DNA of 64,000 bases, taken from positions 1 through 64,000 of the forward strand of contig JANQPD010000061.1 in the NCBI GenBank assembly GCA_028285465.1, given 5' to 3'. Source of the DNA: Owenweeksia sp. Lineage in GTDB: Bacteria; Bacteroidota; Bacteroidia; Flavobacteriales; Schleiferiaceae. A program made the position numbers and the translations under genes. This document shows, in pieces, positions 29,368-38,587 of the stretch. The first letter of the stretch is position 1. The number at the start of each line of letters is the position of its first letter. The notes under the pieces were generated by a model, which saw nothing but the letters and a program-made list of their open reading frames with translations, had not been told where the DNA came from and did not search any database.

Positions 29368-30672
29368 ATGAAACCGACCTTTACCGGGCTAATGCTTGTA
29401 TTTTTTGGATTTGCGGTGTGTGCTCAGAATCCCCATATACAGGGTCTTCCGGGACGGCCTGACCCGGCCCGTTATTTTCAGCCGCAAATTGGGGTGCCGC
29501 AGATCAATATGCCAGCACCGCCTTCGTCTTTTGGCATGAAACCCGCATGGTCGCCCAATCCTGTTGTACCCAACCCGACCCCCGAGAGCATTATGAGAGA
29601 GCAACGGGCGCAGCAACAGGCGCAGGCGCGGATGTACGCAGGAAATAGCGCCCGCAATTACGACATGCCCCCCTGTGTTCCCGCACAGGACATCCGCCCT
29701 TATTACGAGGCTTTTACAGAAATTAAGGCCATGCTGGACGGCACGCAGCCTAAAGATTTAGGCCGCGCGGTTTTCTTATCGGAGAACGCCTATCTTAAAA
29801 ATCTGGATTATGAGGCGTTCAATCAGGGCTTGGAGAATATTGTATTCTCGCTGCTGGATCAGATCAAAAAAGAGGGGAACAGCATTGAAGACAATACCGC
29901 CAAGATCATGATGCTGCATCGGTTTTTTACCGATACCATGCGTATTTATAATCGCCAAAGCGGGAAATATGAAACACATTACCCCAAGCATTATGATTTT
30001 GAAGACCCACGTGGAGATGTGGATATCACCAAGCAGTTTGTTACCAAGCTGATCCGGGAAGAAAGCGGGCAATGCCATTCCATGCCTTTCCTGTTTTTGA
30101 TCCTCGCACAAAAAATGAAGGTGGAAGCCTATCTCTCAACCGCACCGAGCCATAATTATATCCGCTTCAGACATCAACGGAAATGGTATAACCTTGAACT
30201 CACCAATGGACACCTTACCTCGCATTCATATGTCATTGGCTCGGGCAAGGTCAAAGTAGAAGCCATACAGACCCGTCTGTTCATGGATACGATTACGATC
30301 GAGAAAAGCATTGCTCATGCACTCACCGATTTGGCGTCTTATTACCACGAAGAATTTTGCTATGATGCCTTTTACAGGGATGTTGTCCATATCGCCCTTG
30401 ACTATGAACCCATGAATGCATCGGGTCTGGCGGCTTTAAGCAATTACTATACGGCATGGTTTGAACACGCGAAAAAAGTTGCGGGCAATCCCCCTTATGC
30501 ATATCTGGACCGTTTTCCGCAGCTTAGAGAGATCTTTGGGGCATGCAATGCCTTACACCACCATTTGAATGAGATCGGCTATCAGGAAATGAGCGATGAA
30601 GAATATGAGCAGTGGCGGCAAGATGTGAATAGAGACTGGCACCGAAAAACGTTAAAAGAATTAAAGCCGTAA
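29368..30672 (+). CDS. Exported transglutaminase-fold protein A
   Basis: Exported protein, 434 aa. Signal peptide MKPTFTGLMLVFFGFAVCAQ. A Pro-rich, low-complexity stretch follows (about 25-100, with GLPGRPDPARYFQPQ and QRAQQQAQARM), then a helical part and a transglutaminase-like core. The putative triad is Cys236 (SGQCHSMPFLF), His262 (SHNYIRF) and Glu277 (YNLELTNG), with 26 and 15 residues between. The order Cys, His, acid and the strand after His match the papain/transglutaminase fold, but Glu replaces the usual Asp. The C-terminal part is helical. The next gene encodes a paralog with the same motifs. Both stand before an RHS-hinge effector, so a role in processing or cross-linking that effector or the target envelope is possible (inference). 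Confidence 0.7.
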   Translation: MKPTFTGLMLVFFGFAVCAQNPHIQGLPGRPDPARYFQPQIGVPQINMPAPPSSFGMKPAWSPNPVVPNPTPESIMREQRAQQQAQARMYAGNSARNYDMPPCVPAQDIRPYYEAFTEIKAMLDGTQPKDLGRAVFLSENAYLKNLDYEAFNQGLENIVFSLLDQIKKEGNSIEDNTAKIMMLHRFFTDTMRIYNRQSGKYETHYPKHYDFEDPRGDVDITKQFVTKLIREESGQCHSMPFLFLILAQKMKVEAYLSTAPSHNYIRFRHQRKWYNLELTNGHLTSHSYVIGSGKVKVEAIQTRLFMDTITIEKSIAHALTDLASYYHEEFCYDAFYRDVVHIALDYEPMNASGLAALSNYYTAWFEHAKKVAGNPPYAYLDRFPQLREIFGACNALHHHLNEIGYQEMSDEEYEQWRQDVNRDWHRKTLKELKP

Positions 30673-30674
30673 GC

Positions 30675-31751
30675 GTGAAGCCCTTATTGATCTGCATAAT
30701 ATTGGTTTTCTGCGGTTCTGTGCTTCAGGCGCAGGAACACCCTTATATGGTCGCTTATAAACAGCTTGATAGTATGCTGAACGGCAAGGCACCCATAAAC
30801 TTCAAAAAGGCCGTGATAAGCGTAGAGAATGCCTATTATGACGGCAGGCTGCCCGTAGAGATGATGGAGCGTGAAATAAAGCGGCTGGCGGCCCTGGCCT
30901 TAGGCTATAAACAGGCCAACGCTATAGCCTATGAGGGGCGTGACCGTGAGCGCTTTGCCACATACGGGTCGGTCTTTAAAGTGATGAGCGATACGGTTAA
31001 GGTGGTCTTTGCACCGGGCGATACGCTCAACCATTTGCCCTTCACATATGACTTTGAAGATATAGCCGGGCGCCATGACTGGTCAAAGATGTTTGTTTCA
31101 AAGCTGCTGCGTACCGGAACAGGAAACTGCCATTCCCTGCCGTATTTGTATAAAATGGTGGTAGAAGAACTAGGCGAAAACACGCATCTGGCACTCGCCC
31201 CTAAGCATGTGTACATCAAACACCGCTCGGATATGTTGGGTATGTACAATACGGAACTCACCAGTGGCACCTTCCCGATTGATGCATGGCTGATGGCTTC
31301 GGGCTATATCCATCTGGAGGCCATTCAAAACGGCCTGTACATGGAAGCCTTAAGCGACAAACAATCCATTGCCCTGTGTCTGGTAGATCTGGCGCAAGGC
31401 TATGAGCATAAATACGGTATGGATGATGTGCGGTTTATTTTGCTATGCGTGGAAGCCGCCCTTGCGCACTACCCCAACTACCCTAATGCACTTTTGCTTC
31501 AATCAGAAGCCTTAAAAGCCGTGTTAGATCAACTGGCACAACAGCGGCAGGCGGCGCAAACACAGGCCGAAAAAGACAGCTTACAAGCCCGTCATCAAAA
31601 GGTACTCGACCATTACACCGGGTTGATTAAACACATACACACATTGGGATACCGCCACATGCCCGAAGAGATGTATTTGCAGTGGCTGGCCTCCATCAAA
31701 GAGCAACGCAAATATCAAAATCCACAACTAAACACCCTTAAAACCTACTGA
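30675..31751 (+). CDS. Exported transglutaminase-fold protein B (paralog)
   Basis: Exported paralog of the preceding protein, 358 aa, starting at a GTG 2 bases after its stop, so translation is probably coupled. Signal peptide MKPLLICIILVFCGSVLQAQ. It lacks the Pro-rich N-terminal region. Shared blocks with protein A include LDSMLNGKAP (A: IKAMLDGTQP), AVISVENAYY (A: AVFLSENAYL), YDFEDIAGRHD (A: YDFEDPRGDVD), the Cys motif TGNCHSLPYLY (Cys152), His178 (APKHVYIKH) and Glu194 (YNTELTSG). Spacing of the triad (26 and 16) matches protein A. A C-terminal helical region follows, with TPR-like ALAHYPNYPNALLLQSEAL and an RQAAQTQAEKD coiled coil. The retained triad in both copies argues for catalysis in both. 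Substrate unknown. Confidence 0.7.
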   Translation: MKPLLICIILVFCGSVLQAQEHPYMVAYKQLDSMLNGKAPINFKKAVISVENAYYDGRLPVEMMEREIKRLAALALGYKQANAIAYEGRDRERFATYGSVFKVMSDTVKVVFAPGDTLNHLPFTYDFEDIAGRHDWSKMFVSKLLRTGTGNCHSLPYLYKMVVEELGENTHLALAPKHVYIKHRSDMLGMYNTELTSGTFPIDAWLMASGYIHLEAIQNGLYMEALSDKQSIALCLVDLAQGYEHKYGMDDVRFILLCVEAALAHYPNYPNALLLQSEALKAVLDQLAQQRQAAQTQAEKDSLQARHQKVLDHYTGLIKHIHTLGYRHMPEEMYLQWLASIKEQRKYQNPQLNTLKTY

Positions 31752-31753
31752 TC

Positions 31754-32764
31754 GTGAAAAAACTAACCGTCCTTTTTTTACTCTGCGGCCTTTGGGCGTC
31801 TGCCCAAACCAACCCCTATAAAGGCATGGGGGAAAAGGCCGAAAAGCTTGGCAGCAATATATTGACGCTGAGCAAGGGGCAATTCAATGAATTCTTCGAT
31901 AACGACACCATTGTCCAGATCGGCTCCGCCCTTTACAACGTGTTGACAGAAGAAGTCGTGGGCTTCGTAGAATACAAAACCCAAAATGACAATGACGAAG
32001 AAAGCCCCAACACCCACAGGCCGGATATTGTCAGCATGTGGCTTAGCGTTGACCCCTTGGCGCACTTGTTCCCCCATTTAACCCCGTACAATTTTGTTGA
32101 AAACAATCCCATAAACTTAATAGACCCCACAGGGATGGCGCCATGGAAGCCTGGGGTAGATGGAAACGGCAATACCACATATATCGCTGAAAAAGGAGAT
32201 AGTCCTAAAACTTTAGCAGATCAGTACGGTCTTACTCAAAACCAAGCAGAGCAGATTACTGGGACAACAGGCTCAACGCCAATAGCCGAAGGAACGAAAA
32301 TATCAGGACAAAAAGTTAAGAGTACAACGGGAAGTGATATCCTTTCTCTTGATTTGAATTCAGAAATGGCCACTGACCAAAGAACCATAGATCAGGCAGT
32401 TTTTGCTATGGATCATTCAAGAGCAAAAGGTGATATTGGATTTTATTCAACAGACTACTTTGGTAACGCAAAATATAAAAACGTAATAAATGCTAGTGGT
32501 TCCTTAATAGTTGACGGAGAGTCTATCCCTTTAGAATTACAACTACCAGTATATAGGCCATCTACCTTTGATGGCTCCAGCCGTTCTACATTCTTGGGTA
32601 ACTCCCCTTACACCATAAAACAAACTTCTGGGAATAGGTTTAAACAAACCGACTTGTTGATGTTTGACTTATTCCATCCTGACACAAAAAATAGGATGGG
32701 AGGCTACAGAATTTTAGCACCTAGGGGTAAATCAGATAAGTTGTACGACAGGTTAAGCAGATAA
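31754..32764 (+). CDS. Sec-exported RHS-hinge protein with variable C-terminus
   Basis: Putative polymorphic toxin, 336 aa, GTG start 2 bases after the preceding stop. Signal peptide MKKLTVLFLLCGLWASAQ. Residues 95-127 are an RHS-repeat core hinge (MWLSVDPLAHLFPHLTPYNF, then ENNPINLIDPTG at 124-127), the place where RHS toxins are cut and where C-terminal toxin domains are exchanged. No YD repeats precede it; only about 75 residues lie between signal and hinge. A LysM-like segment follows (about 143-170, TYIAEKGDSPKTLADQYG). The last 140 residues are an unrecognised domain (FAMDHSRAKGDIGFYSTDYF; LLMFDLFHPDTKNRMGGYRI). GC falls by eye from about 50% to about 33% just after the hinge. A probable immunity gene follows 21 bases later. 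Confidence 0.75.
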   Translation: MKKLTVLFLLCGLWASAQTNPYKGMGEKAEKLGSNILTLSKGQFNEFFDNDTIVQIGSALYNVLTEEVVGFVEYKTQNDNDEESPNTHRPDIVSMWLSVDPLAHLFPHLTPYNFVENNPINLIDPTGMAPWKPGVDGNGNTTYIAEKGDSPKTLADQYGLTQNQAEQITGTTGSTPIAEGTKISGQKVKSTTGSDILSLDLNSEMATDQRTIDQAVFAMDHSRAKGDIGFYSTDYFGNAKYKNVINASGSLIVDGESIPLELQLPVYRPSTFDGSSRSTFLGNSPYTIKQTSGNRFKQTDLLMFDLFHPDTKNRMGGYRILAPRGKSDKLYDRLSR

Positions 32765-32785
32765 ACAAATTAGATTTAATAATAC

Positions 32786-33367
32786 ATGTTCCTCAAAAAA
32801 GCATACATAAAACTTATATGGCTTGCACTTATAGGTTTGTTTTTAAATAATTGTCACGCACAGACAGATATACGTTCGTCTATCCGTCAATGTGTTAAAG
32901 ATAAAACAGATAAGCATTTTCAAGATCTCTACAGTGAATCTACTTTAGATGTTTATCTAATGGTAGACTCCATAGAAAGTAGTCTTCGGTCCGCTGATAT
33001 TCTGAAAGACCTTAGTAAAAAAGAATATCTAAGGTTAGTTGAAGGCGTGAAGAAATCAGACAGTGCCCTTATTGAGAACAATACCATAAAAGAGTTTAGC
33101 ACTATCTCTGGCCTTGTGGTGAGTGATATAGTTTCGTTTTGCCCTTATAAAACAGTAGTAGAGCAAGAAAATGAGATAGAGTCTTCTCTAGTAAATCAAT
33201 TTAGGTTAAGTCAAAGGCTTTTGGCCACAGGTTATGAGTTCTCTTTGATAAAAGAGTATATCGTTGATATCGCTTCTAAAGACTTTGAAGCGGTTGAATA
33301 TAGGACACCAATAATGATTATGTTATTATTTCATCTGGAAAACAAAATTCTTGAACGCACCCGATGA
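32786..33367 (+). CDS. Exported partner of RHS-hinge protein (immunity candidate)
   Basis: Unrecognised exported protein, 193 aa, 21 bases after the RHS-hinge gene. The N-terminus is a signal peptide (YIKLIWLALIGLFLNNCHAQ); Cys could be lipidated, but the lipobox is poor, so cleavage at AHQ-type CHAQ is as likely. The mature part is helical and acidic (YSESTLDVYLMVDSIESSLR; DILKDLSKKEYLRLVEGVKK). AT-rich composition matches the toxin C-terminal region, not the core upstream, so the two were probably gained together. Position and composition fit an immunity protein. Export of the partner would place toxin action in the periplasm or envelope (inference). Confidence 0.6.
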   Translation: MFLKKAYIKLIWLALIGLFLNNCHAQTDIRSSIRQCVKDKTDKHFQDLYSESTLDVYLMVDSIESSLRSADILKDLSKKEYLRLVEGVKKSDSALIENNTIKEFSTISGLVVSDIVSFCPYKTVVEQENEIESSLVNQFRLSQRLLATGYEFSLIKEYIVDIASKDFEAVEYRTPIMIMLLFHLENKILERTR

Positions 33368-33397
33368 CAATGGATGCGTTTGGAGCCCTCTTCTTCA

Positions 33398-33448
33398 GGT
33401 TAGGGCAGGAAAGGAGCAGGGGCTTTTGGGTTTGCCCAAGGCCCCTGT
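33398..33448 (+). repeat. 51-bp hairpin repeat, copy B
   Basis: Second copy of the repeat at 28544-28594, with 3 differences in 51. It starts 31 bases after the stop of the immunity candidate. The nested hairpin is kept (outer stem CAGGGGC / GCCCCTG) but no T tract follows at once; TTTTTTTT occurs 26 bases later. The two copies bracket the 28.6-33.4 kb array. Confidence 0.8.
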
Positions 33449-36487: not shown

Positions 36488-38587
36488 CTACCGGAGTACT
36501 ATTCGATCCGTTTGCACTTCCCCATTCTCGCTTTCCCATCGGAGTAAGTAGGTACCACGTGGCAAGCCGGGAAGTTGAAGTTGGCTTTCTCCTTTGAGCT
36601 TTCTTTTGTACACCGTTTTTCCACTCAGGTCTGATACGGCTATCGTTGCCGGGCCGGGGCCTTTTGTTTGTATGTGGATACGCCCGTAGGTAGGGTTTGG
36701 GTAGAAGGCCAGCCAGCCTCTTGAATAATTGGGGTCTTCCATGGAGAATTCATAATAAGCCAGGCATGCTGACGTATCTGAGCAGTTGCCTTTGGTCAGT
36801 ACTACGGCATAATCTCCATTAGATGCGGGGAAGAAAGATGAGTCTGTAGCTCCTGGAATAGAGGCATAGCCATTGGTGCAATCTACCCATTGATAGCTTG
36901 TTCCGCTGTCATTTGCCGAAGCTAAGATCCAGCCGTTTTGAATAAATACCGCTGTATCGATAGAGGTGAGGGTTAAAACAAGCACATTAACAGAATCCAA
37001 ACCATTCGCGTTGTAGGAAGAGTCTGTATAGGTATCCGACTGGGAATAGACGTTTCCGTTCCATAAAAATTCCTGGCACGCAACAGCGGTGTCGGTACGC
37101 ACAACAGGCCGCTCTGCTGCGCCTGCGTCCCTGGTTCCGAAGATCACCCCATTTTGTGCATCGGTATAGTCCTGCGGATGCCCCGTGTTCAAGGCCAGGC
37201 TTGTTGGGCCAGGCATAAGGGTTTTTCCGTATCCACCGTAAAACCCAAAGGGTTCGAGTCCCAGCATCGAAAAGGGGATATTGGTCTGATCGGTAGGAAC
37301 GGCAAAAGAGGGATTGTCCTTAATGATGTTGTATCCCCGGTTGGTCACCGTCATATTGTCTTCAACAGAAGCTCCTGAACCGCCCCCAACGATTATGGAG
37401 CTGCTTATCCTGAAGCTGTAATCGGGGTCTCCATCAACCAGGGCTTTGGCCGAAGAAGTAGTATTGAGGATGCTGGAGTTTATGAGGTCTATATGCCAAC
37501 TGTTTAGGGTGCTTAGCGCAATCGCGGGCGCTTCGTTATTGTATAGGGTTGAGGTTTTTAACTGTACGTAAGACTCCTGAAAATAGCAAGCACCCCCATT
37601 ATTAAAGCTTCCGCTAACGGTGTATTGATTGTTTGTAAAGGTAGAGTTGTTGACATACAGGGAATCCACCCCGGCAGTATATATACCTCCCCCATTGCCT
37701 TGAATGGCTTTATTGCCGTTAAAAGAGCAACTTTCTATATCAACTCTTCCATAAGTTGATAAAAAAGCAAGGGCTCCTCCGCCTCTTTCGGATTCATTGT
37801 TTTCAAAAATACAATATGCAAACCGTGAGTTGGCGGCTCCGTTGAGGTGCACTGCCCCGCCACCGGCAAGCGTAAAATCGGTGGATACGCGGTTGCTCCT
37901 GAATGTACAATGGGAAAACAAACCTTTACCAAGGGCAACAAGGACCGCCCCTCCTGATTGGCAGGTGCTGTTTCCGTTAAAAGAACAATTTTCGGCCCTC
38001 AGGGTGCCAAAAGTCACTTCGATGGCGCCTCCCGAGCCGTAACCGGTTAAGCTTGAACAGGAAGCAGACCCATTGTTGCTGAATGTGCAGTCTTCCAACT
38101 TGAGGTCTCCATTGTATATGCTTATGGCGCCGCCACTGGGAAAATTCCCGGAAACCAGGTTATGGCGGAACACACAGTTCTTAAGGGATAAGGAGTGAAG
38201 ACGATTTGAATAAATTACCCCTCCGCCAGACGATGTGGAGAAATTTGTAAATACAAAGTTGCTTAGGTAGACCGGGCCAAGCCATGAATCTACATCTAGG
38301 TTAAAAGCCCTGTTGGCATTGACGCCTGTAACATAGAGCGTATCGGCCCCCTGTATTGCCCCAAATATGGTGAGGGGACTGTCGATCTCTATTTGACTGT
38401 GCAATTTCAGGGTATCGCTTCCATTCGACAATAAGCCAGGGTCTATTTGAATGGTGTCTCCCGAATGCGCGTTGTTTATAAGCTCCCTTAATGAACCGGG
38501 CCCTGTGTCATTTAAATTGTTAACGGTATGGATCTGGCTGTAAGCCACTAAGGGAAAAAAAAGCAGGAGAACGGCAAGTGCGCGCAT
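36488..38587 (-). CDS. T9SS surface protein with parallel beta-helix
   Basis: Exported protein, 699 aa. Signal peptide MRALAVLLLFFPLVAYSQ. Residues about 20-470 form a right-handed parallel beta-helix of choice-of-anchor Q type: NNLNDTGPGSLRELINNAHS, then turns with FSNNGSASC, ENCSFNGNSTCQSGGAVLV, FENNESERGGGALAF and NKAIQGNGGGIYTAG. A linker with DAGAAERP is typical for the family. About 490-610 is a beta-sandwich (CQEFLWNGNVYSQSDTY; YQWVDCTNGYASIPGATDSS). The C-terminus is a T9SS type A sorting domain (GWLAFYPNPTYGRIHIQT ... GLPRGTYLLRW). It is probably a surface adhesin or polymer-binding protein; no catalytic residues of a pectate lyase were seen. It is monocistronic. Confidence 0.87.
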   Translation of the reverse strand: MRALAVLLLFFPLVAYSQIHTVNNLNDTGPGSLRELINNAHSGDTIQIDPGLLSNGSDTLKLHSQIEIDSPLTIFGAIQGADTLYVTGVNANRAFNLDVDSWLGPVYLSNFVFTNFSTSSGGGVIYSNRLHSLSLKNCVFRHNLVSGNFPSGGAISIYNGDLKLEDCTFSNNGSASCSSLTGYGSGGAIEVTFGTLRAENCSFNGNSTCQSGGAVLVALGKGLFSHCTFRSNRVSTDFTLAGGGAVHLNGAANSRFAYCIFENNESERGGGALAFLSTYGRVDIESCSFNGNKAIQGNGGGIYTAGVDSLYVNNSTFTNNQYTVSGSFNNGGACYFQESYVQLKTSTLYNNEAPAIALSTLNSWHIDLINSSILNTTSSAKALVDGDPDYSFRISSSIIVGGGSGASVEDNMTVTNRGYNIIKDNPSFAVPTDQTNIPFSMLGLEPFGFYGGYGKTLMPGPTSLALNTGHPQDYTDAQNGVIFGTRDAGAAERPVVRTDTAVACQEFLWNGNVYSQSDTYTDSSYNANGLDSVNVLVLTLTSIDTAVFIQNGWILASANDSGTSYQWVDCTNGYASIPGATDSSFFPASNGDYAVVLTKGNCSDTSACLAYYEFSMEDPNYSRGWLAFYPNPTYGRIHIQTKGPGPATIAVSDLSGKTVYKRKLKGESQLQLPGLPRGTYLLRWESENGEVQTDRIVLR

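Follow-up and report, generated by a model that had tools for sequence, protein, structure and literature searches.

The closest described relatives of the genes considered here are polymorphic toxins in which an N-terminal transglutaminase (TG) domain, judged inactive through loss of its triad residues, is followed by RHS repeats (Zhang et al. 2012, PMC3482391). The same survey lists Ntox10 in Bacteroidetes together with Imm27 and a transglutaminase. In RHS/YD-repeat toxins and the C subunits of Tc toxins, a hinge (..DP..PY..NNP..DPxG) precedes an exchangeable tip, and the MafB/MafA pair of Neisseria consists of a Sec-exported polymorphic toxin and a dedicated partner proposed as its surface anchor (PMC3482391). 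The present analysis concerns four genes, TG-A, TG-B, C and D (A and B for short in the case of the first two), in a stretch of 64,000 nucleotides from an Owenweeksia sp. genome (GenBank assembly GCA_028285465.1, contig JANQPD010000061.1; hereafter the window). Sequence comparisons give good support to the view that these genes are one copy of a widespread bacterial weapon module.

Like the toxins of Zhang et al., the module is Sec-exported and ties a TG domain to RHS-type toxins with variable tips, and one of its fused loci, L112, has their combination of Ntox10, Imm27 and transglutaminase. It differs in that the triad is kept as Cys-His-Glu, the Zhang set having been compared by description only, and in that there are usually two separate TG genes beside a short hinge carrier without RHS repeats. 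In the window the TG genes are separate, so that a TG domain placed directly after the signal peptide of the toxin polypeptide and followed by RHS repeats was not found there. The fused TG~C proteins described below may overlap with the Zhang group, in which Glu replacing Asp may have been counted as loss of the triad. With RHS/YD-repeat toxins and Tc-toxin C subunits the module shares the hinge before the tip, with both conserved aspartates, and it differs from them in lacking a YD-repeat shell, in the size of the carrier (roughly 300-430 aa) and in having TG partners. To our knowledge, the N-domains and partner of the MafB/MafA pair are unrelated to those of the module, and the pair includes no cysteine enzymes. 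A sequence-only reading of this locus had claimed that no described system has this combination; that was too strong, as transglutaminase-bearing polymorphic toxins were already in Zhang et al. (2012, PMC3482391). There is thus precedent for polymorphic toxins, for RHS hinges and for TG-linked toxins. What is apparently new is a hinge carrier that lacks repeats and stands in strict association with one or two TG-fold proteins whose triad is conserved, a gene combination undescribed in the literature searched, which left subscription journals mostly uncovered.

The four genes follow one another on the + strand, separated by 2, 2 and 21 bases (Table 1). A hydrophobic export segment is evident at the N-terminus of each from hydropathy and from reading the N-termini by eye, and the signal region of D contains a loose lipobox. 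Four tightly spaced + strand genes with signal peptides, the third having an RHS-core hinge but no YD repeats, are what the sequence-only reading had described, and all of this was confirmed together with its gene positions, except that the last gene ends at 33367 rather than 33448. The RHS core end in C, 'MWLSVDPLAHLFPHLTPYNFVENNPINLIDPTG', matches positions 44-76 of the 76 in TIGR03696 (C residues ~95-128; E 1.5e-5, 25.4 bits, below the family cut-off of 32.5). No RHS/YD repeat was matched in C by Pfam profile search, and the region ahead of the hinge amounts to ~95 aa, signal peptide included. Among 48 C-type proteins, Asp100 of the hinge is conserved in 47 and Asp124 in 46. An AF2 model of C made with 9 relatives reached a pLDDT of 34, so no fold was assigned to C.

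Table 1. Genes and features of the module in the window
Feature	Position	Strand	Description	Basis
TG-A (gene A)	29368..30672	+	ATG start, 434 aa	ORF (open reading frame) call
TG-A domains			Signal peptide; Pro-rich N-terminal stretch ~aa 21-105; TG-fold domain; helical C-terminus	
TG-A triad	30073-30075; 30151-30153; 30196-30198	+	Cys236; His262; Glu277	
TG-B (gene B)	30675..31751	+	GTG start, 358 aa	ORF call
TG-B domains			Signal peptide; N-terminal helices; TG-fold core; TPR-like helices	
TG-B triad	31128-31130; 31206-31208; 31254-31256	+	Cys152; His178; Glu194	
C	31754..32764	+	Compact RHS-hinge toxin carrier with exchangeable C-terminal tip; GTG start, 336 aa	
C conserved N-domain	31808..32035	+	~aa 19-94, contains ..LSKGQFNEFFDNDTIVQIGSALYN..	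N-part comparison
C RHS hinge	32036..32134	+	aa 95-127	Partial TIGR03696 match
C hinge aspartates	32051-32053; 32123-32125	+	Asp100; Asp124	
C variable tip	32138..32761	+	208 aa; LysM-like stretch ~aa 140-177	LysM-like stretch by eye
D	32786..33367	+	Exported AT-rich candidate immunity protein; ATG start, 193 aa	Position

The gene arrangement is far beyond chance because it recurs in dozens of other Bacteroidota loci. Within the window's family A or B was found in 1 of 88 sampled genomes, the window's own, and within the order in 14 of 396, two of which hold fragments only. A search of the same 396 genomes with the N-domain of C gave 12 strong matches, identical to the 12 genomes with intact TG genes, and all 15 C genes in these sit at TG loci; two more weak matches are to the generic hinge only. 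At class level the TG profile matched 27 of 395 genomes, with members also in other classes of the phylum, and 56 of the 61 TG stretches collected across the phylum also hold the C N-domain. The other five are two fragments (L063 and L064), a contig end (L151), a locus with a hinge gene of divergent N-part (L149) and a lone distant TG protein without a hinge gene (L161). The sequence-only reading had proposed looking for TG genes beside RHS-hinge genes elsewhere, and this pairing proved near-universal, with repeated fusion. Ordinary RHS genes with similar hinges in the same genome, and the single occurrence among 88 family genomes, would suit a decayed or chance RHS fragment lying beside unrelated secreted TG-like proteins, with no system at all; the finding of the same order or fusion across the phylum already refutes this, and we give it practically no credence. 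The ordinary RHS genes are on contigs C18 and C20 (L066 and L067) and are accompanied by several short tandem ORFs; they have the same hinge type, and the tandem ORFs look like cassettes of a separate RHS locus.

Gene order varies between loci. Besides A-B-C-D, as in the window, there are loci with the order A-C-D..-B, in which toxin and immunity genes lie between the enzymes, loci with a single TG gene and C, and loci in which A is followed by a TG-B~C fusion composed of signal peptide, TG, hinge and tip. Gaps between TG and C genes are mostly a few bases. The fusion was found in 16 sampled proteins, and its TG-to-hinge spacing of ~100 aa leaves no room for a repeat array. A and B are 34% identical paralogues. 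In a tree of 98 TG domains, obtained by a quick search without bootstrap and with a few short A proteins labelled B, the A domains form one clade (SH-aLRT 99%) and the B domains and fusions another (96%), a small single-TG group falls outside both, and the fused state involves at least three label changes. The recurrence of this fusion is strong evidence, at the sequence level, for joint action of TG-B with the carrier. Enzymes of the TG/papain fold are capable of cross-linking proteins or of hydrolysing bonds in the envelope, and A, B and C are all exported, so A and B might instead be co-secreted effectors that modify the envelope of the target, or of the producer itself, and so aid tip entry without acting on C. 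The repeated TG-B~carrier fusion points to the carrier as the partner, as does the strict linkage to the carrier N-domain whatever the tip, and we consider such an envelope role quite improbable.

The tips of the carriers are exchangeable. When the 48 C-type proteins were compared with one another, 1104 of 1128 pairs had similar N-parts with hinge, against 12 of 1128 with similar tips. Identities of N-part and tip within one locus are 82/29% (L098), 79/29% (L100) and 94/34% (L148), and between loci L012 and L014 they are 97/23%. The reverse case is provided by L052 and L061, whose tips are 85% and downstream genes 78% identical and whose gene orders differ. Known families matched by tips are Toxin-JAB1 (4), GIY-YIG (2), Ntox10, Tox-MPTase2, Tox-REase-7, HNH, M23, M10 and DUF6973, and several further tips contain HExxH. 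No consistent difference in GC content was detected between tips and TG genes (p 0.99). For the tip of the window the 396 genomes gave no close relative, its matches being weak and short only, and none of its relatives has a known activity. Three loci (L148:5540-8762, L098:2930-5630 and L100:3773-7859) have two carrier genes each, whose N-parts are nearly the same and whose tips are unrelated, which looks like the addition or swapping of toxin cassettes. At L050:4596-5375 the tip is broken by an opposite-strand ORF, presumed to encode a transposase on the strength of its first residues alone, and the tip is complete in the nearly identical L053. The tip at L107:1445-2221 resembles, by eye, OmpA-like peptidoglycan-binding domains, not a classical toxin.

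For one locus the pairing of toxin and immunity protein can be recognized directly: in the fused locus L112, an Ntox10 tip is followed by Imm27, its known immunity protein. The D genes are AT-richer in 37 of 39 loci, and in the window the GC content is 34.5% for D versus 48% for A. The protein encoded downstream of the tip has no export segment in the 5 cases with a nuclease or Ntox10 tip but carries one in the 10 compared cases with a protease-like tip, tip classes being assigned partly by motif and tip similarity; this is the pattern expected if immunity is located where the toxin acts. The D of the window is a candidate immunity protein by position, with no family match, and since it is exported the window's toxin probably acts in the envelope. 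The variability of the tips, the known toxin tips and the one toxin-immunity pair support the earlier proposal that this is a minimal polymorphic toxin, exported by Sec, whose tip can be exchanged and whose immunity gene lies downstream.

The TG proteins are probably dedicated cysteine enzymes, predicted from their sequences to be active. A and B share the motifs G-x-C-H-S, A-P-x-H and N-x-E. Among the 98 TG domains of A, B and the fusions, Cys and His are present in 98/98 and Glu in 97/98, with Asp in the remaining one; in a first set of TG proteins all three residues were kept in 78/78. Transglut_core2 (PF13369) scored below its Pfam cut-off of 23.5 against the window's A (E 0.053, 13.4 bits), did not match the window's B in the Pfam search, and matched 22 of 30 TG relatives, with a best E of 9.6e-5. 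A PDB sequence search with TG profiles returned mostly TPR proteins, which matched the C-terminus. Two distant TG-family proteins of ~290 aa (L160:4072-4968 and L161:4366-5223), apparently SirB1-like and without linked hinge genes, could possibly serve as an outgroup.

For TG-B a good AF2 model was obtained, with a pLDDT of 86 and a pTM of 0.85. The closest solved structure is human menin (Foldseek E 4.4e-3), which aligns over 255 residues at 4.1 Å (Z 16.2, model residues 21-336), followed in the structure ranking by an unrelated row at Z 9.4, PNGase at 8.0 and a TGase at 7.7. The model shares the overall menin fold of N-terminal domain, TG-like thumb and TPR palm. At the level of sequence a match is absent: the Menin Pfam profile (PF05053) matched no TG gene, hhalign gave a probability of 0.3% for the TG family and menin, and the menin/TG hidden Markov model score falls inside the range of shuffled sequences, the human menin sequence used in these comparisons having been verified against PDB entries. 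Sequence kinship with menin was dropped after these three negative tests and the fold resemblance alone retained; a shared menin fold proves neither kinship nor function. Menin was called solely eukaryotic in a 2023 survey, and human menin is without the catalytic Cys (PMC10318531). That the TG proteins are catalytically active relatives of menin acting as toxin-maturation enzymes is a doubtful proposal; if true, the ancestor of menin would be an enzyme from a bacterial weapon system, and with this module a new class of toxin processing would come to light.

The menin-like fold, a peptide-binding scaffold in eukaryotes, also bears on the main rival explanation, in which A and B would be non-enzymatic anchors or chaperones, binding C and keeping it at the cell surface. 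A lipobox-like signal is frequent in B and in the fused proteins, and for the TG domains of polymorphic toxins, judged inactive, a role as peptide-binding anchors was suggested (Zhang et al. 2012, PMC3482391). Near-invariance of Cys, His and Glu is more than a pure scaffold would call for, and we hold this explanation to be unlikely.

We think it rather probable that the four genes form a Sec-exported polymorphic toxin module in which C is the carrier, D the immunity protein and A and B cysteine enzymes acting on C. C would be a short carrier, its conserved N-domain and RHS hinge holding an exchangeable toxin tip, and D, exported to the envelope, would protect against that tip. A and B, as putative ancient paralogous TG/papain-fold cysteine enzymes, would work on C after Sec export, most likely processing or transferring it through Cys-His-Glu thiol chemistry, and, ahead of entry of the tip into a competitor, C would thereby be either detached from the cell surface or fixed to it. 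The enzymes may cleave, cross-link or anchor the toxin. Comparison among genomes establishes, on sequence evidence, the conserved module with its linkage, fusions and triad, the exchangeable and known toxin tips and one toxin-immunity pair; that the window's tip is toxic, that D protects against it and that A and B act catalytically on C is inferred, as is the route of delivery.

Several points weigh against the enzyme-and-carrier scheme. At its third position the active site has Glu in place of the usual Asp, and TG catalysis is therefore a prediction. The hinge retains both conserved RHS-core aspartates, so that self-cleavage of C, with no need of A or B, is conceivable. A cis role for the fused TG-B fits processing more simply than attachment. 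The window's tip matches no known toxin family and its D no known immunity family, and the export calls throughout are hydropathy heuristics. The co-occurrence counts are not independent, as many of the sampled loci come from one genus, but despite this bias the module is spread widely over classes.

Delivery by a type VI secretion system was rejected, the host being without the Bacteroidota-type TssC: the window's genome lacks PF17541, as do 11 of 20 module-carrying genomes, in a search confined to this TssC family. SprA of the type IX secretion system (T9SS) is present in 20/20 module genomes and is hence uninformative; no T9SS sorting domain was matched on A-D, and T9SS-dependent steps in delivery are possible. 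Outside the module, on the - strand at 36488-38587 of the window, lies a gene for a large secreted protein with a Por_Secre_tail (T9SS) sorting domain and PMP repeats.

Polymorphic toxins are major interbacterial weapons, but little is known about how the Sec-exported ones of Bacteroidota are made ready and reach their targets when no type VI apparatus is involved. The module suggests that such toxins may be prepared or mounted in a way not described before. As a carrier of this size and two conserved cysteine enzymes are small enough to reconstitute, the question is directly testable. A TG-A/TG-B pair adjoining a hinge gene also gives a handle for mining genomes for new families of toxin and immunity proteins, of which the window's own pair would be an example.
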